Program-made: the position numbers and the translations under genes
Shown: positions 3,016-61,003 of the stretch, in pieces
Position numbering within the stretch: position 1 is the stretch's first letter
How the letters are laid out: each line of letters starts with the position of its first letter
Notes under the pieces: generated by a model
What the model was told of the DNA's origin: nothing
The model's database searches: none
The model's input: the letters and a program-made list of their open reading frames with translations, nothing else
From: Kiritimatiellaeota bacterium B1221
Lineage (GTDB): Bacteria > Verrucomicrobiota > Kiritimatiellia > SS1-B-03-39 > UBA6053
Reading direction: 5' to 3'
NCBI GenBank assembly: GCA_029269125.1
Contig: JARHXX010000004.1
Span: 186,001 to 250,000 of the forward strand
Length of the DNA: 64,000 bases

Positions 3016-5874
3016 ATGAGTACTGAAGCACTTCTCGATATTATGTGGATTCTCCTTTGCGCGGGATTCGTCTTTTTAATGCAGGGAGGATTTCTCTGTT
3101 TGGAAAGCGGGGTCACCCGTTCGAAAAACTCCATCAATGTCGCCTTTAAAAATATTGTCGATTTTGGATTGGCGGTTCTGCTGTACTGGGTGATCTCGTA
3201 TGGACTGATGTTCGGAAGTTCCGCCGCCGGTTGGGTGGGCACGGACGGGTTCTTTTATACCATCAGCGGAGAAGAGGCGCCATTTCAGTACAGTGTGTTT
3301 ATTTTTCAGGCCATGTTCTGTGCCACCGGCGCAACCATTATTTCCGGTGCCACGGCTGAGCGTTTACGTTTCTATGCCTACCTGTTTATTACCGCTGTTT
3401 TCTCGGTTCTGGTTTATCCCTTTGTGGGGCATTGGGTGTGGGCCACCGACTATTTAGGCAATCCCTCGGGTTGGCTTGCGGAAAAAGGGTTCCTCGATTT
3501 TGCCGGATCCAGTGTGGTTCACAGCACCGGTGGCTGGGTCTCACTGGCCCTGTTGATTCTGGTGGGGCCGCGTTTGGGACGGTTTGATGATAAAGGCAAA
3601 GCGGTGGAAATTCCCGGAAGCAATATGCCCTTGGCCATGTTGGGCACCACCTTGTTGGTATTTGGTTGGTTCGGGTTTAATGGCGGCTCTACGCTTTCGT
3701 TCGGGGGAGGCGTGCCGCTGATTTTGATGAATACGCTGTTAGGTGCCGTCGGTGGTATGACCGTGGTTTTGGGATTCATTCCCATCACCAAAAAATTACC
3801 GGACCCGGGGTTGGTGATGAACGGGGCGATTGCCGGATTGGTGGGGGTGACCGCGAACTGTAACTTAACCGGACCGGTGGCGGCCATTATTATTGGCGCG
3901 GTGGCGGGAGTGATCATGCTGGGGACTGTACGGCTTCTGGAGTACTTAAAAATTGATGATGCGGTGGGGGCGATTCCCGCCCATTTGACACCGGGAATTT
4001 GGGGGACCCTGGCGGTCGCATTTTTTGCGGATGCCGAAGTGATGGGTCTCGAATCCGTGGATCGTATGAGCATGTTCGAAACCCAGTTCATCGGGGTGAT
4101 TGTGATAGGTTTCTGGTCTTTCTGCCTCTCTTATGTGCTGTTCTATCTTATCAAAAAGTTTGTCCCCCTGCGGGTGAGCGCAGAAGAGGAGCACGCCGGG
4201 CTCAATATCAGTGAGCACAATGCCCGCACCGAAACTTTGTTTTTGCTGCAGGATATGGAAATGCATGCCCGCACGGGAGATCTTTCGAAGCGGGTACGGG
4301 TGGAACCCTTCACTGAAGTGGGACAGATTGCCCGTCAGTATAACAAAGTGATCGACACCCTCGACCTGACCATGAGTCGCTTAAAGTCGATCTTTCAGGA
4401 CTTGCACGACGGGATTATCACCTTCAACTCCGAAGGGAATGTGCTTTCAATGAATCCGGCCGCCGGAAAGTTTTACGGACTGGAGCCGGCAATGGCGGGC
4501 GGGCTTTCCGCATGGGATCTGCTGGTACCGGAAAGTCGTGATGATCTGGAAGTGCATCAGCCTGTTGATCATGAACCCTTCGATCCCTTCCGTGCCGGCG
4601 TGATGCAGGAAATCCACTATTTCCGTAAAAATTCACGGAAAGATGAGGTCGTCGAGTTTGTCGCGTCTAAAGGGTCGTTTAACAATGAAGTCATCTACAC
4701 AGGGTTGATTCGCGATGTGAGTGAAACCGTGCAGACCAAACGCAGCAAAAGCCGTCTCATGAGTAAACTTGTGGGGGCGCAGCAGAGTCAGTTTTATGCC
4801 GGAATGTGTAAGCAGTCGGTGCCGGTCTTGCGCAATCTGTCGAAACGGATTTATGATCTGTCTTTAAGTTTGCCGAGAACCATTCCGGATCCGCGTCTGA
4901 AAACGCTGGAAAATGACGCACAGGAGATTCTCCATTTAACCGATGATCTCCGTTATGTGGAGATGCAGGGATCCCTGCCGGTGAAAGAGGTCGCCTTGGC
5001 CCCCTTCCTGGAAAACTTTTTACAGAATCTGGTTTCGGAAGCCAAGTATCCTGAATTCGGAGAAACGAAACTGTCCATTGATTTGGATGACAACTCACTG
5101 CAGGCGCTGGTGGCACCGTCTGCGCTGGAACAGGTTCTGGAAATTTTGCTTCTGTTGTCCTGCAGAGAAAGCGGGGTGGAGAAAGGGGTGGTTGTGAAGC
5201 TGGAAAGCTGTTATCTGGATCATCCCTTATCCGGAACCGAAGTGATTCCCGCGGGTGAGTATCTGACCCTTCATTTGGTGGATGAAGGTGAAGGCATTCC
5301 GGAAGCTGAACTGGATGAATTCTTTGAAGGACGTGACCGCAAATACAAAGATATCGACCTCGCGATGGCGGAGTCGATGGTTCGCCATATGAATGGGTTC
5401 ATGGATGTGGATTCCACCCTCGGGGAGGGAACCACACTCTCGATCTATTTGCCCATTGCCCGGGATCTGGAAGATCCGGGAGAGCCGGAAGAGGCGGAGG
5501 CCACGGTGATGCTGATCGATGATCACCGTCCGATAACCCGTCTGGTCTCCGGACTGCTTCATAAGATTGGCTATAAGGTTCTGACTGCCGAGACGGGGGA
5601 CCGCGCTCTGGCCAAAATGAAAGAAACCGCAGTGGATGTGGTGCTTCTGGATCTTATTCTGGCCAAAGACCTGCAGGCACGGGAATATACTTTCCGTCAG
5701 ATTCATGAACGTTACCCCGAAATTCCGATTCTGGTCAGTGGCGGGGAAGTGGATGCACAGGTCCTGGCCACGGTGATTCAGGAGGGAGCCGCCGGTTTCC
5801 TTGAGAAACCTTATGTGCCAAGTAAATTGCTGCATATGGTGAAAAGGGAGGCGATGGCCAAGAAGAACGCTTAA
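3016..5874 (+). CDS. Ammonium transporter fused to HAMP/PAS-like, degenerate kinase and receiver domains
   Basis: Residues 1-390 form an Amt/Mep/Rh channel with the usual membrane helices and both pore histidines (H169 in VVHSTGG and H323 in AIPAHLTPGIWG). Then follow a HAMP-like linker (about 404-450), a PAS-like domain (about 451-570), a helical dimerisation segment and an HATPase-like fold (G1 box DEGEGIP near 756, G2 box GEGTT near 803), and a C-terminal receiver domain with acidic pair D835/D836, phospho-acceptor D879 and K931. Amt proteins fused to signalling output are known ammonium sensors. Here the segment aligned with the histidine phosphorylation site reads AGMCKQSVPVL, with Gln600 where His is expected, and the N-box asparagines are missing. 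Autophosphorylation is therefore doubtful, although the receiver looks intact. It probably reports extracellular ammonium. A strong terminator follows. Confidence 0.9.
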   Translation: MSTEALLDIMWILLCAGFVFLMQGGFLCLESGVTRSKNSINVAFKNIVDFGLAVLLYWVISYGLMFGSSAAGWVGTDGFFYTISGEEAPFQYSVFIFQAMFCATGATIISGATAERLRFYAYLFITAVFSVLVYPFVGHWVWATDYLGNPSGWLAEKGFLDFAGSSVVHSTGGWVSLALLILVGPRLGRFDDKGKAVEIPGSNMPLAMLGTTLLVFGWFGFNGGSTLSFGGGVPLILMNTLLGAVGGMTVVLGFIPITKKLPDPGLVMNGAIAGLVGVTANCNLTGPVAAIIIGAVAGVIMLGTVRLLEYLKIDDAVGAIPAHLTPGIWGTLAVAFFADAEVMGLESVDRMSMFETQFIGVIVIGFWSFCLSYVLFYLIKKFVPLRVSAEEEHAGLNISEHNARTETLFLLQDMEMHARTGDLSKRVRVEPFTEVGQIARQYNKVIDTLDLTMSRLKSIFQDLHDGIITFNSEGNVLSMNPAAGKFYGLEPAMAGGLSAWDLLVPESRDDLEVHQPVDHEPFDPFRAGVMQEIHYFRKNSRKDEVVEFVASKGSFNNEVIYTGLIRDVSETVQTKRSKSRLMSKLVGAQQSQFYAGMCKQSVPVLRNLSKRIYDLSLSLPRTIPDPRLKTLENDAQEILHLTDDLRYVEMQGSLPVKEVALAPFLENFLQNLVSEAKYPEFGETKLSIDLDDNSLQALVAPSALEQVLEILLLLSCRESGVEKGVVVKLESCYLDHPLSGTEVIPAGEYLTLHLVDEGEGIPEAELDEFFEGRDRKYKDIDLAMAESMVRHMNGFMDVDSTLGEGTTLSIYLPIARDLEDPGEPEEAEATVMLIDDHRPITRLVSGLLHKIGYKVLTAETGDRALAKMKETAVDVVLLDLILAKDLQAREYTFRQIHERYPEIPILVSGGEVDAQVLATVIQEGAAGFLEKPYVPSKLLHMVKREAMAKKNA

Positions 5875-55088: not shown

Positions 55089-55910
55089 TTACGCTCTGCG
55101 GGGGCGGAACGTGACCAACAACGTGATTCCCCCCAGCATCAATAGCACGGATGAAGGCTCTGGGATCACAATTAATCGTGCCGCACTGAGTGCTGTCCAC
55201 TTACCATCGAGAGCGCTGGAATCGGCCACTTTCAGCAACAATCCATCGTCAGCAATGTTCAGCGAGCTGATGTTCATGTATCGTAATCCGTCATAGCCAT
55301 CGGTCCTCCCCCTGAACGCATGTGCGGATGTGTCGGTTGTATTCCAGTTGACCCCCGTCGCTGCCTCGGCTGTGGAGGCAGTGCCGTCCTTCTCCAGGAC
55401 ATTGAAACCCTGCCAAGTGTCCCCGTCATCCAGCGAATAGGTGTAGATTCCGTTCCCATTTGCACTGTCGCGGGAGAACCATAAATCGATACTCACCGTG
55501 TCCCCGGAGGTTAAACCTGTAAAGGTAAGGGTGAACGATTGGACTCCTGAAGACGTGCTGGTGAAAAAATAATCACCGGCAGCCCCGATTTGGGTTCCTG
55601 AACCTTCATCCGTGGTGACCCAGGAGGGGCCAACCTCGCTACTGTCAAACACGGTGCCGGTGGAAAAGGAGTTCGTCATCGTCCCTGCTTTACTGAACGA
55701 GAGGGTCGATGGTTGGTTCTCACTGTCCTTCAGAGCTGTGGTGCCTATGTCGGTTGTTGCGATGTCAGCCGGATCATCGAATTCATTCCAATACCCGGAG
55801 GGTCTGGCGTCCCCGGCCGGATCGTTGAAATCGATTAAAAAAGTGGTTGAGGCTCTGGCACAGCCGAGAGCGGTGATCAGGAGAAGCGAAGTTAAAATAG
55901 GTTTATTCAT
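55089..55910 (-). CDS. PEP-CTERM protein
   Basis: 273 residues. A signal peptide (MNKPILTSLLLITALGCARAS) is followed by TTFLIDFNDPAGDARPSGYWNEF, which parallels the mature start of the protein at 45510-46259, so the two are likely paralogs. The C-terminus VIPEPSSVLLMLGGITLLV is followed by RPRRA. It is presumably anchored at the surface by exosortase. It lies beside mobile-element scrap. Confidence 0.85.
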   Translation of the reverse strand: MNKPILTSLLLITALGCARASTTFLIDFNDPAGDARPSGYWNEFDDPADIATTDIGTTALKDSENQPSTLSFSKAGTMTNSFSTGTVFDSSEVGPSWVTTDEGSGTQIGAAGDYFFTSTSSGVQSFTLTFTGLTSGDTVSIDLWFSRDSANGNGIYTYSLDDGDTWQGFNVLEKDGTASTAEAATGVNWNTTDTSAHAFRGRTDGYDGLRYMNISSLNIADDGLLLKVADSSALDGKWTALSAARLIVIPEPSSVLLMLGGITLLVTFRPRRA

Positions 55911-56132
55911 GTGGAATTCTCTCTGACGAATGGGTTAAATTTGGGATTAACTTATCAGTGGTTGTGGTTTATATAAATACAATAAGCCTTTTTCTTCAAA
56001 CGATTAATGAAGCGAATATCCCCGCCCTTAATTTTGCCGGCAACCTTTGACATCGAAATCAAAAACCCGGCAAGACGAACACAAGAAATGCGCCAACTTG
56101 GGAGCGGCACCGCTGGAGTTCACTTCGTTTAA

Positions 56133-56222
56133 ATTTCGATCAGCAGCCTGGTTCTGCTTTTGGGTGGTTTTGCTCTCATGTTTGCATTTAAGCTGAAGCG
56201 CCGCCGCCAGGCAGGCCGTTGA
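56133..56222 (+). pseudogene. PEP-CTERM gene fossil (C-terminal end)
   Basis: The last codons read SSLVLLLGGFALMFAFKLKR and end at TGA 56220-56222. Where IPEPSSL should be, the sequence reads ISISSL after an in-frame TAA. The membrane helix and basic end remain, but no full gene is present upstream. Confidence 0.55.
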
Positions 56223-56273
56223 TAAATGGTATAAGAACAGGGTGGGTGGAGAAAATAAAGGGCTTCAGCTTAC

Positions 56274-56509
56274 GGTCTGACTTGAATGGCACTAAGTTAA
56301 GGGTATGGGTCATAGGACGTCCTTTATAATCGGGCTGAAGGTTCGCTCGAATAACGGCTTGGACACGGGTGTATTCGAGCGGACCTTCAGCCCGCCTCAC
56401 TTTGTTAACTTGAACGTCCCAGCCCTTCGGACTGGGCCAAAATTTGTTCGGACCTACGGCCCGAAAACCATTGAAAGTACACCTTATCTTAGTGCCATTC
56501 CGGTCTGAC
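56274..56509. mobile_element. MITE-like element with terminal inverted repeats and hairpins
   Basis: The element spans about 56282-56501. Terminal inverted repeats contain GAATGGCACTAAG (56284-56296) and its complement CTTAGTGCCATTC (56488-56500). GGTCTGAC flanks both sides (56274-56281 and 56502-56509), as an 8-bp target duplication would. Inside are a 23-bp stem (56331-56353 with 56372-56394, one G-T pair), and two shorter hairpins, one with a TTCG loop (CCCAG..CTGGG near 56425) and one with TTCGGACC/GGCCCGAA near 56450. No coding frame is convincing, so it would depend on a transposase elsewhere. Confidence 0.65.
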
Positions 56510-56661
56510 TCTCATCCCTCTTTCTAAACCGGTCCTCTTTTTCTTTTTTCTGAGGGTGTCGGCTTAAAATGAGCGATTTTTCAGACCTAAACTTGACGGT
56601 TTAATTCCTATCTTTAAAAGGTTGACCCTTATGAATTCAAAAATAGGGATAAGGTATGCCT

Positions 56662-57597
56662 ATGAATAAATTAATGTGTGTATTGCTTGGATTGGTCGCC
56701 TGCTTTGGTTCTGCTTTTTCTGCCATGGTGATTGATACTTCTTTTGTCGGGGACATTGGAAACGCGGCCCATTCAAATGGGAAGGGGGCGGTCAATTATG
56801 GGTATAATATCGGCACCTATGAAGTGACGAATGCGCAATACGTCAGCTTCCTCAACGCCAAAGCTGCCTCAGATCCCCTGGGATTGTATAACCCCGAGAT
56901 GACCAATTCTGTCCACGGCGGTATTATACGAAGCGGCTCCGACGGTTCTTATACCTACACCACCAAAACGGGAAAAGAGAACATGCCGGTAAATTTTGTG
57001 AGTTTTTGGGATGCGGCCCGGTTCACGAATTGGTTAACCAACGGAGAGGGGAATGGCGATACCGAAACGGGGATGTACACCCTGACGGCATCGGGAATGG
57101 ATACAAATACCATCACCCGAAATATGGACGCTTGGAATGCCGGTGGGTTTGCAATTACAAGTGAAGATGAATGGTTCAAGGCCGCCTATTATAAAGGGGG
57201 CGGATTGTTTGCGGGCTATTGGACTTATGCAAATCAGAAGGATACCATCAGTGCATCAGAAGCCAATTATGAGAACAATGTCGGCTTTCTTACCGCAGTG
57301 GGTTCGTACGCATCGACAGAAAGTGCTTACGGAACCTTCGATCAGAATGGGAATGTGTTTGAATGGAATGAAGAAATCGTCCTGAACGCCTTGCGTGGCT
57401 TACTTGGGGGGGCTTTCAATTTATCCGAAGCACAGCTTACCGATAACAGTGGGAATAGCCCGCATTCGGAAAGCGTCCAATATGGTTTCAGGATCAGTCA
57501 GCTGGCAGTGATCCCTGAACCGTCCACGGTTATGCTTTTCTTGGGTGGATTGGCGCTGTTGGCATACGGGAAGCGGTTTAAACAGAAACAACCGTAA
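56662..57597 (+). CDS. SUMF1/FGE-like domain protein with PEP-CTERM signal
   Basis: 311 residues from ATG 56662, which follows a TAAGG site; ATG 56656 is too close to it. A signal peptide leads into a formylglycine-generating-enzyme-like domain: NYGYNIGTYEVTNAQYVSFLN, MPVNFVSFWDAARFTNWL, FAITSEDEWFKAAYYKGGG, TFDQNGNVFEWNE, LGGAFNLSEA and YGFRIS. The catalytic cysteine pair near the GGSW region of true FGEs is missing. It ends in VIPEPSTVMLFLGGLALLA plus a basic end. It is likely a surface protein with an FGE-like fold, rather than the enzyme maturing the sulfatases. Confidence 0.85.
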   Translation: MNKLMCVLLGLVACFGSAFSAMVIDTSFVGDIGNAAHSNGKGAVNYGYNIGTYEVTNAQYVSFLNAKAASDPLGLYNPEMTNSVHGGIIRSGSDGSYTYTTKTGKENMPVNFVSFWDAARFTNWLTNGEGNGDTETGMYTLTASGMDTNTITRNMDAWNAGGFAITSEDEWFKAAYYKGGGLFAGYWTYANQKDTISASEANYENNVGFLTAVGSYASTESAYGTFDQNGNVFEWNEEIVLNALRGLLGGAFNLSEAQLTDNSGNSPHSESVQYGFRISQLAVIPEPSTVMLFLGGLALLAYGKRFKQKQP

Positions 57598-57727
57598 ATG
57601 CGGTTGCGCCTGCTTTCAGATCCCTTTGGGTGAAGCGCTTTACGAGGCTTTGTTTCGATTCCCCGGAGATACTGGACCGCCGGGGGCGGGTTCGATTTCG
57701 GTTTCGACTCCGGCTATACCCAACATT

Positions 57728-57849
57728 CCCATTGGCGGCGGGATATTTGCCGTTCGAGAACGGCGTCACTACCGCAATTCCCTAACCCTCCATTCTCCTG
57801 TTATCTGTATGCTCAGTTGGCATTTCCGCAGATACCTGAAACTTGCCAG
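57728..57849 (+). pseudogene. Remnant of a PEP-CTERM gene related to 42363-43004
   Basis: Blocks matching the 3' end of the gene at 42363-43004 occur in order: ATTGGCGGC, ACGGCGTCA, CTCAGTTGGCAT and CGCAGATACCTGAAACTTGC. The frame is broken several times. It lies directly after an intact PEP-CTERM gene. Confidence 0.6.
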
Positions 57850-58115
57850 AGAGAAGGGCTTCCGATGTTCTGGGGCGAAGCTCCGATCGATTAACACACT
57901 TTAGATGCGGATACTTTCGGACGGGCCATCTGACCGCATTTGATTTAAAACCCAAAACCCGGTCCTGACGGATCGGGCTGAAATTCTGCGGGGGCTTCAG
58001 TCCTGCCCATAAAGTCTCCATAAGATTAGCGACAAGAACATGGAGGAACCTTAGACGGCCCTTTTGTCTGAAAAAGTCCGGAGCCGTGGACGATCAATTG
58101 TGCAGACCCCGACTT
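57850..58115. other. Short spacer with hairpin
   Basis: GGGCTGAA (57975-57982) pairs with TTCAGTCC (57996-58003), a small hairpin whose left arm also occurs at the start of the 23-bp stem of the MITE-like element. It could be a decayed copy of part of that element. Nothing else was recognised. Confidence 0.3.
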
Positions 58116-58901
58116 CTATTTACGTTTCGCCAAGATGGCAAGCAGCGCAAAAGCCCCGAACAGGAGTACAAAAGAACCGGGCTCTGGGATGACGGCACCA
58201 TTCAGGATCACATTATCCAGCCGAAGAATATCACTTACGTTGGCGCTGTTGATTTTGAAAGCGTAGAGGCGAAAAGTAACCGCAGATGTAATATTGGAAA
58301 ATGTAGGGCTGCTGAGGTCAATTAGGGTATCCTGCCCAAATCCCCAGTTTTGATTGACCCCACTGGGGATATTGCTCATCCCGTTCAGATTTGATTGCAG
58401 GATATTTGGAAGAGAGCCGGCATCAGTTGCATTTTCAGTGGTGATGGTAAGTTGATCATTATAATCAAATCCGGTTAAAGAGGAGGTTGCTGCAAAACGA
58501 AATTCGTTCGTGCCATCATAGCCCACATCTAGACGAAGGTCTGTCAGGTTGAGACTTTGACCCGAATCGGGGGTAAGGGTGAATTCCAGGTAGAGGCCAT
58601 TCGTTTTTGCGTAATCCCATGAGGCTGAAGTCGTACTTAAACCCGTGCCGATACTGCTCCCCAGTGAAAAATAACTTCCGGCTCCTTCCGAAGTGTTGCC
58701 CGTAGACCTGCCGTCATTTAATGCCAGTGCTGCTCCGGGGATGATGTCGCTGGCAGTGATTCCTGATTCGTTCGCAGAATCTGCAAATATCATTCCCTCA
58801 TCATTAAAATTGTATTGTGCCAGTATGCTTCCCGATGCCAAAGTGGATAGTGTAAAGGCTGCAGAAAGAGAGAGGGATTTTATGAGGGTAGATTTTTGCA
58901 T
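58116..58901 (-). CDS. PEP-CTERM protein
   Basis: 261 residues from ATG 58901, which opens on a signal peptide (MQKSTLIKSLSLSAAFTLST); the frame extends to 59105 but the added residues look spurious. The mature part (ILAQYNFNDEGMIFADSANE) has Ser/Thr-rich beta-strand sequences. The C-terminus VIPEPGSFVLLFGAFALLA is followed by KRK. It is a likely surface protein, with no domain recognised beyond the sorting signal. Confidence 0.8.
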   Translation of the reverse strand: MQKSTLIKSLSLSAAFTLSTLASGSILAQYNFNDEGMIFADSANESGITASDIIPGAALALNDGRSTGNTSEGAGSYFSLGSSIGTGLSTTSASWDYAKTNGLYLEFTLTPDSGQSLNLTDLRLDVGYDGTNEFRFAATSSLTGFDYNDQLTITTENATDAGSLPNILQSNLNGMSNIPSGVNQNWGFGQDTLIDLSSPTFSNITSAVTFRLYAFKINSANVSDILRLDNVILNGAVIPEPGSFVLLFGAFALLAILAKRK

Positions 58902-59167
58902 GGATGAGCTTTTGGATGATATATGTGCCTGTATTAGGTGTATAATAGGGTATTTATTGGGAAAAGTAAAAGATGATCGAAGATTTTTGGGGTTGTGAAT
59001 GCTGTATTTCCTGCGGGGAGTGGCAGGTCGTGGATCGGGTGGTGTGGTCATTCCAACTATCCTTTTCCTAACGGGTAAAGGCTGAATTATATTGTAAAAG
59101 TACATATTTGTTCCTATAGTGAATTTTATTTGCCCGTTTCTACCTCCTCACCCCCTTTATTTATATC

Positions 59168-59911
59168 ATGATGAATTTACGTAGACTTTTACCTGCCTTC
59201 TCCATTTTGAGCCTCTGTTTTCTCTCGGCTTCCGGGTTACAGGCTGCGGTGGTGACCACGCCGTATTCCAACGACTTTTCCAGTTCTGTGGCTGATTTCA
59301 CTGAAAATGATGACCCCAATTGGTCTCTGGTGTCTGGCACCTATCAATACTTTACTTCACTTGATAATAATGCCGGATCAGCCATGGTCACGGCCACTGG
59401 CCTTGGCGCGACTTATGAAGATTTCGTCGTGAGTACGACTTTTGAAGTTACCAGTAAAGCAAGCGGTGGCGTTTTTAATTGGGGCATGGCGCTGTTGGGG
59501 AATGATGAAGATCCCGGCACGTATATTTTGGCAGATCTTTCATCGGGCGGTGGTATTCGCCTGATCAATGTGGGTGGTTCCGGAACGGGCAATGATGTCA
59601 ACGAAACGGGCAGCTTTTCATACGCGCTCAACACCTCTTACACCCTGACCGCGACGGGCACGTATGTCGGCAGCGATTTAACCCTGAAACTTGATATTAC
59701 GAATGGAGTCAGCTCGACGTCGATCACCGCGGCCGCATTTGATGCCTCCACGTATTACACGGGCGCAGCCATGGGCTTGCGCGCACGCAGTGGTTCCGGT
59801 GGCGGCACCACCGTTCAATACGATTCGTTTACGATTATTCCCGAGCCAAGCACCTTCTCCCTGATGGCGGGATTTTGCTTGTTGGGATATGTGATGCTGC
59901 GTCGCCGTTAA
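59168..59911 (+). CDS. PEP-CTERM protein with ConA-like features
   Basis: 247 residues. A signal peptide (MMNLRRLLPAFSILSLCFLS) is followed by TTPYSNDFSSSVADFTEND, YEDFVVSTTFEV and GMALLGNDEDPGTYILAD, the pattern of a lectin-like jelly-roll. The C-terminus IIPEPSTFSLMAGFCLLGYV is followed by RRR. It is an independent transcription unit with a terminator behind it. Confidence 0.85.
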   Translation: MMNLRRLLPAFSILSLCFLSASGLQAAVVTTPYSNDFSSSVADFTENDDPNWSLVSGTYQYFTSLDNNAGSAMVTATGLGATYEDFVVSTTFEVTSKASGGVFNWGMALLGNDEDPGTYILADLSSGGGIRLINVGGSGTGNDVNETGSFSYALNTSYTLTATGTYVGSDLTLKLDITNGVSSTSITAAAFDASTYYTGAAMGLRARSGSGGGTTVQYDSFTIIPEPSTFSLMAGFCLLGYVMLRRR

Positions 59912-59934
59912 GGTTTTGCTGCATTTGAATCCAG

Positions 59935-59964
59935 GCGGTCTCTGTTTCAGAGGCCGTTTTTTTT
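59935..59964 (+). terminator. Terminator after PEP-CTERM gene
   Basis: Stem CGGTCTCTG with CAGAGGCCG (one G-T pair) and a TTT loop, followed by nine T residues. Confidence 0.85.
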
Positions 59965-60225
59965 TGAATATGGGGAATGTGTAAACAGGCGTAAGCGGGA
60001 TCATGATAACCTGGGCGTCGATGGGTGGAGCGAGTAGACTTTGCGGACAGGGTGCTGCGGCGTCCACAAAGTCCGCAACCAAAACCTAGGAGATAGAGGC
60101 CGGGGACAGACCGCGGGTGAGGGTTGTGAATCAACAGTTTAACAGCGGAGGAGGGCGGGTATTAAATTTAGGCATGTATAGGTATGAAATCTTTGACACG
60201 CATGCGTTTTGCCCGCACAAAATAA
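59965..60225. other. Intergenic, nothing recognised
   Basis: Spacer between two convergent PEP-CTERM genes, bounded by a terminator on each side. No gene or repeat is visible. Confidence 0.3.
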
Positions 60226-60253
60226 AAAGCCCGGCACCGAAGTGCTGGGCTTT
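60226..60253 (-). terminator. Terminator for the minus-strand PEP-CTERM gene
   Basis: Stem AAAGCCCGGCAC with GTGCTGGGCTTT (one G-T pair) around a CGAA loop. On the minus strand a T-rich run follows. Confidence 0.85.
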
Positions 60254-60289
60254 CGTTCATCCTTCACAAGAAGGGGGAAGGCGGGGCCT

Positions 60290-61003
60290 TTATAAACGGC
60301 GGCGGAAGAGCAACAAACCACCGAGGCTCAGCAACACCAAAGCCATGGTGCCGGGTTCCGGAATGGCCGTGGTAATGGTCAGAACCGGAAGCGAAGCTAT
60401 ATTTTGATCAAAATTATCGGTCGCAATCTTCAGGTAGCGACTGTTTGAACCGTATCCCACATCCGGAGCCAAAGTTAAAAACACATATTTGCCTGCTGCA
60501 TTTATATCATTCGTGTAAATATTCTGAATATATGATGTCAGACTGCTTAAATTGATGATTTTTTCACCGGTTGTGACAGAATTATTCATTTCATACATTC
60601 CATCCGCTAAAATCGTACCACCGAAAGCCACCGTATCCGAATAGGTATCTGTTGCGGCAGTATTTGCGGTGGAGCTGGCTGTAGTTCGGGGGGCTAATAA
60701 GTCAAGATACACACCGGTTGCCGCATCTCCGCCAAAATAGTTAATTCCTGTAATATTATAGGTTAATGAGACATCAGAAATAGTTTCCCCACTGGGCAGT
60801 GTCGGCAAAAGAAAAGGCATTACAAATCCACTACGCTGAGGACTGGTTTCTGTCCCAACTCTTGCCTCCGTTGCGTTTGGAAATTGAGAACTCCCATCTG
60901 ACCGCCAGTGTGTGCCTAGCCCATCCATATTTGATGTGAGTATCGCCCCCGTCGCAATCGATGTTATAAATGCAATTGATGCTGTAAGTAAGATTTTTTT
61001 CAT
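60290..61003 (-). CDS. PEP-CTERM protein
   Basis: 237 residues. A signal peptide (MKKILLTASIAFITSIATGA) is followed by a beta-strand-rich domain (FVMPFLLPTLPSGETISDVS, YFGGDAATGVYLDLL, KYVFLTLAPDVG), similar in layout to DNRLRE-type adhesion domains. The C-terminus AIPEPGTMALVLLSLGGLL is followed by RRRL. It is divergent from a LacI regulator, which probably controls it. Confidence 0.83.
   Translation of the reverse strand: MKKILLTASIAFITSIATGAILTSNMDGLGTHWRSDGSSQFPNATEARVGTETSPQRSGFVMPFLLPTLPSGETISDVSLTYNITGINYFGGDAATGVYLDLLAPRTTASSTANTAATDTYSDTVAFGGTILADGMYEMNNSVTTGEKIINLSSLTSYIQNIYTNDINAAGKYVFLTLAPDVGYGSNSRYLKIATDNFDQNIASLPVLTITTAIPEPGTMALVLLSLGGLLLFRRRL

Follow-up and report, generated by a model that had tools for sequence, protein, structure and literature searches.

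Organisation of the locus

The window, i.e. the whole stretch of 64,000 nucleotides that was analysed, is situated on contig C89 of the draft host genome (G000; 4.52 Mb in 144 contigs). A series of PEP-CTERM-type ORFs on both strands occupies positions 55089 to 61003 of the window, and a short non-coding element of the MITE type, with terminal inverted repeats (TIRs) and target duplications (TSDs), was found among them. The features are as follows:

55089-55910, minus strand, PEP-CTERM-type ORF
56273-56283, plus strand, left TSD CGGTCTGACTT, 11 bp
56284-56500, no strand assigned, MITE, 217 bp, non-coding; internal-deletion form of a 285-bp element, 68 bp missing
56284-56302, plus strand, left TIR GAATGGCACTAAGTTAAGG, 19 bp; IS4-subgroup end
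56331-56394, no strand assigned, central hairpin formed by two inverted REP half-units
56418-56463, minus strand, full REP unit, 46 nt, hairpins CGGGCCGTAGGTCCG and CCCAGTCCGAAGGGCTGGG; 66.7 bits, E 4.3e-15
56482-56500, minus strand, right TIR GAATGGCACTAAGATAAGG (inverted), 19 bp
56501-56511, plus strand, right TSD CGGTCTGACTC, 11 bp, sharing 10/11 positions with the left TSD
56656-57597, plus strand, PEP-CTERM-type ORF
57958-58004, minus strand, decayed solitary REP unit; E 0.011, with a weak RF01687 match too
58116-59105, minus strand, PEP-CTERM-type ORF
59168-59911, plus strand, PEP-CTERM-type ORF
60290-61003, minus strand, PEP-CTERM-type ORF

The TIRs and the internal stem described in the initial annotation were both recovered. 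Together with their flanks the TIR arms extend over 28 nt (86% complementary), and the 23-bp stem of the central hairpin is formed by arms 56331-56353 and 56372-56394, which are 96% complementary. The flanking duplication GGTCTGAC noticed earlier is real, and the 8 bp seen then were only a part of the 11-bp TSD. Both further hairpins were located as well, CCCAGCCCTTCGGACTGGG at 56418-56436 and the palindrome CGGACCTACGGCCCG at 56449-56463; the hairpin with the TTCG loop on the plus strand is a part of the REP unit at 56418-56463. Between its ends the window copy carries one full REP unit and the half-unit hairpin.

Immediately to the left of the element lies the remnant of a PEP-CTERM gene tail (56132-56222, LVLLLGGFALMFAFKLKRRRQAGR*). 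The earlier description of the surroundings as a region of decayed genes holds for this remnant and does not extend to the neighbours on either side, where one intact PEP-CTERM ORF terminates at 55910 and another, of 313 aa, begins at 56656. The similar hairpin arm pointed out near 57975 is likewise a genuine, if weak, repeat; it was considered as a second MITE and rejected, the TIR being absent there and only the decayed REP unit present.

Both strands of the element fold far more stably than shuffled sequences (z -9.2 and -9.8, 0/200 shuffles equal). This stability reflects the palindromes alone and does not imply an RNA function.

Copies of the element and target duplications

Searches of the host genome returned 30 DNA matches to the element and 23 matches to its TIRs, as compared with a single match for the reversed-pattern control. 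They resolve into about ten dispersed MITE copies of 114-285 bp with 19-bp TIRs, coding for neither a transposase nor any other gene and each accompanied by an 11-bp duplication of its own. Six are complete within one contig (C89, which is the window copy, C55, C96, C22, C91 and C94) and three are split across contig ends (C62/C129, C75/C104 and C54/C132). The halves of two of the split copies merge through a 38-bp overlap into elements of 285 bp, and the third is inferred solely from its duplication (9/11). A further, truncated copy is present at C22:17778. The full 285-bp form, e.g. on C91 and C94, comprises two inverted REP units around the central hairpin; the shorter forms of 236, 217 and 114 bp derive from it by internal deletion, in most cases between repeated segments of REP.

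An old, degraded sequence resembling the MITE was also found at C67:71972 (L154); it retains a single TIR and one decayed REP unit (E 1.1e-5 with the REP model R1 described below) and suggests an earlier wave of insertion.

Comparison of the left and right flanks of ten insertions, nine MITEs and one insertion sequence (IS) with the same ends, gave 93.6% identity when exactly 11 bp were compared, even with some TSDs matching at only 9-10 of the 11 positions, and there was no signal at other lengths between 6 and 15 bp. Mispaired flanks agreed at 50% on average and 66% at most, their agreement of about 50% being due to target preference: the duplicated targets fit the symmetric motif GGNCWGNCC, whose palindromy was reached in 1/5000 shuffles. 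Ten insertions of the same TIR and TSD type within one genome are far more than chance would produce.

At C62/C129 (L034/L040) the MITE interrupts a gene for an integron-type tyrosine recombinase (integrase), and the joined flanks form an open frame. The IS copy, split over contigs C123/C81 and bordered by the same exact TSD, behaves in a similar way, its joined flanks restoring an open frame of 462 aa. Both joins can be read as reconstructed empty sites.

The searches for genomic copies and empty sites proposed in the initial annotation thus yielded about ten dispersed MITEs and, at one MITE insertion, a reconstructed site with restored reading frame; the reading as a mobile, non-coding MITE is borne out by these copies, by their variable 11-bp TSDs and by the autonomous IS with matching ends described below. 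The MITE is known from one genome, with none among the 11 family genomes or 240 class genomes searched, and the empty sites are reconstructions rather than natural empty sites in a relative. The lack of copies in relatives, which the initial annotation had named as an argument against mobility, was hence encountered in part and is outweighed by the copies in the element's own genome.

An autonomous partner of the IS4 subgroup

The autonomous element with shared terminal repeats, which had also been suggested for a search, was found both in the host, in decayed form, and intact in a congener. The sole match to PF01609 (DDE_Tnp_1) in the host genome is a broken transposase on C79, placed between two such TIRs (L052); evidence for a full-length IS in the host consists of this one decayed copy and of the two contig ends with identical, exact TSD. 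Kiritimatiellota bacterium B12222 (G008, CP120722.1), of the same genus, carries an intact IS of 1558 bp with matching ends (L095). Its 482-aa transposase matches NF033592 “IS4 family transposase” at 4.8e-58, over the cut-off, and is of the DDE type with a complete YREK signature that can be read directly in YLRRWQIEVSFRDLK as Y-(2)-R-(3)-E-(6)-K; by sequence, this transposase has no relative in the PDB. Members of subgroup IS4 of the IS4 family have ends of the type -AATR--------WTW----, TSDs of 10-13 bp and sizes of 1400-1650 bp (De Palmenaer et al. 2008, PMC2266710). The ends of the partner IS, GAATGGCACTAAGWTAAGG, agree with this terminal consensus, and its TSD of 11 bp and length of 1558 bp are both inside the ranges of the subgroup. 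Relatives sharing ends of the GAATGGCACT type, with duplications of 10-11 bp, are present in Gammaproteobacteria, Verrucomicrobia, Omnitrophota, Cyanobacteria and further groups.

Several related loci should be mentioned in this respect. A second IS copy in B12222 (L120, 1333276-1337202) matches transposase residues 1-309 only, with a gene for a Y1-type transposase behind it. At C165:4620 of the genome G007 there is an IS-like end to which no payload is attached. IS ends in relatives (L144:1550-1780; L095, about 480-525 and 3160-3240) adjoin short repeats, e.g. GGTCGGGGTCAGCCCG and AAAAGGGTCTGCCCG, which resemble the target motif, and the partner IS may have a preference for repeats of this sort.

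REP units and RAYT genes

When the internal hairpins were aligned with similar sequences from elsewhere, a unit of 46 nt emerged, composed of the hairpin CGGGCCGWAGGTCCG, a 12-nt linker and the hairpin CCCAGTSCGAAGSGCTGGG. Each stem has one conserved G.U wobble, one pair switches between GC and CG, and 98.8% of the cells are paired; a GTAG/GAAG/GCAG tetranucleotide sits inside the first palindrome. A covariance model of the unit (R1) was run with 150 candidates scored per genome and detected units in 10 of the 11 family genomes, with at least 58 listed in the host, 14 of them inside MITE copies. The only two units listed in G006 stand in inverted orientation on the two sides of one RAYT gene, and REP arrays lie on both sides of a RAYT (HuH transposase) gene in B12222 and likewise in G005. 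The RAYTs of these three genomes are 61-62% identical to each other. The units flank RAYT genes in inverted orientation in all three, and the internal hairpins are therefore REP palindromes of a RAYT system; they are not transposon sequence.

These data bear on two other explanations of the element. If it were an internal-deletion derivative of the IS, the subterminal hairpins of the latter would have become its interior, and along some 40 bp one MITE end does resemble that of the IS (GAATGGCACTAAGATAAGGGG...TTTTCGGG). However, none of the tested IS copies (L095, L119, L120, L121 and L052) contains a REP unit, and a derivation of the hairpins from the IS was rejected on this ground; moreover, the interior of the MITE holds no transposase remnant, and REP units occur genome-wide without TIRs. 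We regard such an origin as highly improbable.

Alternatively, the element could be a REPIN or BIME spread by a RAYT, its IS4-like ends being incidental. The payload is indeed a RAYT-linked REP, and the host also has REP clusters that are similarly laid out but lack TIRs, e.g. at C22:87898. Against this, the conserved boundaries are IS4 TIRs with 11-bp TSDs at every complete copy, while to our knowledge movement of the RAYT/IS200 type creates no TSD of such kind; the ends of the MITE correspond to those of an IS that encodes a DDE transposase, and the cognate RAYT subfamily is missing from the host assembly, where the best RAYTs are only 42-43% identical. Spread by a RAYT consequently appears unlikely, and mobilisation through the IS4-type ends is the reading that we follow.

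Relationship to the Acido-Lenti-1 RNA

The Rfam family RF01687, Acido-Lenti-1, was listed only as a probable RNA and not as cis-regulatory (Weinberg et al. 2010, PMC2864571). The match of the MITE's REP units to it lies on the opposite strand, covers all 46 positions and scores 18.9-21 bits (cut-off 37), and R1 in turn matches RF01687 copies end to end. Other host loci pass the cut-off, e.g. C111:134114 at 46 bits, as do loci in 43 of 288 class genomes, often in many copies. The presence of RF01687 is associated with that of RAYTs among the genomes (31 of 43 RAYT genomes as opposed to 34 of the 245 others, p 2e-14, without correction for phylogeny).

For a test in the reverse direction, both models, R1 and RF01687, were applied to 30 RAYT loci, each taken from a different one of 30 genomes. 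A unit of either model was found less than 100 bp from the gene in 12 of them (L200, L204, L205, L206, L211, L212, L218, L220, L221, L225, L226 and L227), whereas 20,000 permutations averaged 2.2 and never exceeded 9. The units in these 12 loci are 42-72 bp from the gene, and the nearest R1 units point towards it. Since RF01687 is homologous to the REP unit and located near RAYT genes, it probably represents a family of REPs and not an sRNA.

The same evidence has to be weighed for the element itself, which had been suggested to fold as RNA and which might be a functional structured or regulatory RNA gene, multi-copy by chance. Folds of high stability on both strands, pairing conserved with compensatory changes and the full-length, sub-threshold match to RF01687 are all compatible with a gene of this kind. 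The unit is nevertheless delimited by TIR and TSD, its internal units are freely deleted among copies (285/236/217/114 bp), and the pairing is equally conserved in RAYT-flanking REPs, as expected of REP DNA; neither promoters nor terminators were matched in the window element. The best Rfam scores belonged to eukaryotic microRNA models (mir-610, MIR166), were far below the cut-off and driven by the hairpins, and were discarded, which leaves the REP-like RF01687 as the sole specific relation. We consider an RNA gene very unlikely and the earlier suggestion not sustained, the hairpins being best read as REP-type DNA palindromes.

Proposed origin and implications

Taken together, these results make it very probable that the window element is a non-autonomous MITE of the IS4 subgroup, with a REP cluster captured between its ends and moved in trans. 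According to this model, a pre-existing REP cluster would have been captured between two IS ends, which the DDE transposase of an IS4-subgroup IS from the same genus would recognise as the two ends of the MITE. The transposase would excise the MITE and insert it at GGNCWGNCC-like sites, giving rise to the 11-bp duplication, and a later deletion between direct REP repeats would have removed one REP unit from the window copy. REPs, normally tied to a HuH transposase (RAYT), might thereby spread partly as passengers of a DDE-mobilised MITE. Both the trans-mobilisation by an IS4 transposase and the capture of a pre-existing cluster we infer from the arrangement of these parts.

Two mobile-repeat systems are, on this reading, nested in one small element, a REP cluster inside an IS4-mobilised MITE, which would provide a second spreading route for REP palindromes. 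Acido-Lenti-1, a candidate RNA, would gain a testable identity, and if RF01687 is a REP family, sRNA annotations based on it would be misleading and its partner would be a known enzyme class, the RAYTs; this by-product may outweigh the MITE finding itself. A broader proposal, which we find conceivable but short of probable, is that RF01687 is a RAYT-linked REP family and that its sister class in the host, for which a cognate RAYT was not found, now travels on the IS4-subgroup MITE, having changed from a HuH to a DDE mobiliser.

Comparison with known systems

MITEs are known as a kind of element; the combination of REP and IS4 and the REP identity of Acido-Lenti-1 appear to be new, given that no description of either was found in the open (non-subscription) literature covered. 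As in REPIN and REP-RAYT systems (Nunvar 2010, PMC2817692; Bertels and Rainey 2011, PMC3116915), the units are imperfect, multi-copy, clustered palindromes, they flank RAYT genes in inverted orientation, and in the 285-bp copies two inverted units make a doublet. They differ in being enclosed here by IS4 TIRs and TSDs and in that the GTAG tag is variable and placed within the first palindrome, not at its foot. The partner IS agrees with the IS4 subgroup (PMC2266710) in ends, TSD, size, YREK signature and NF033592 match, whereas the window element has no transposase and would represent a MITE of this subgroup with a REP payload. With RF01687 the MITE units share 46 positions, two hairpins and the linker, on the opposite strand, but score below the 37-bit cut-off and so form a sister class, not members by the rule of Rfam. 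A parallel in architecture is provided by mobile insertion cassettes of the MIC231 type (IS231, IS4 family; cited in PMC2266710), in which IS4-family ends also surround non-transposase cargo. Such cassettes are mobilised in trans and their cargo consists of genes, whereas elements of the type found in the window carry non-coding REP palindromes and measure just 114-285 bp.
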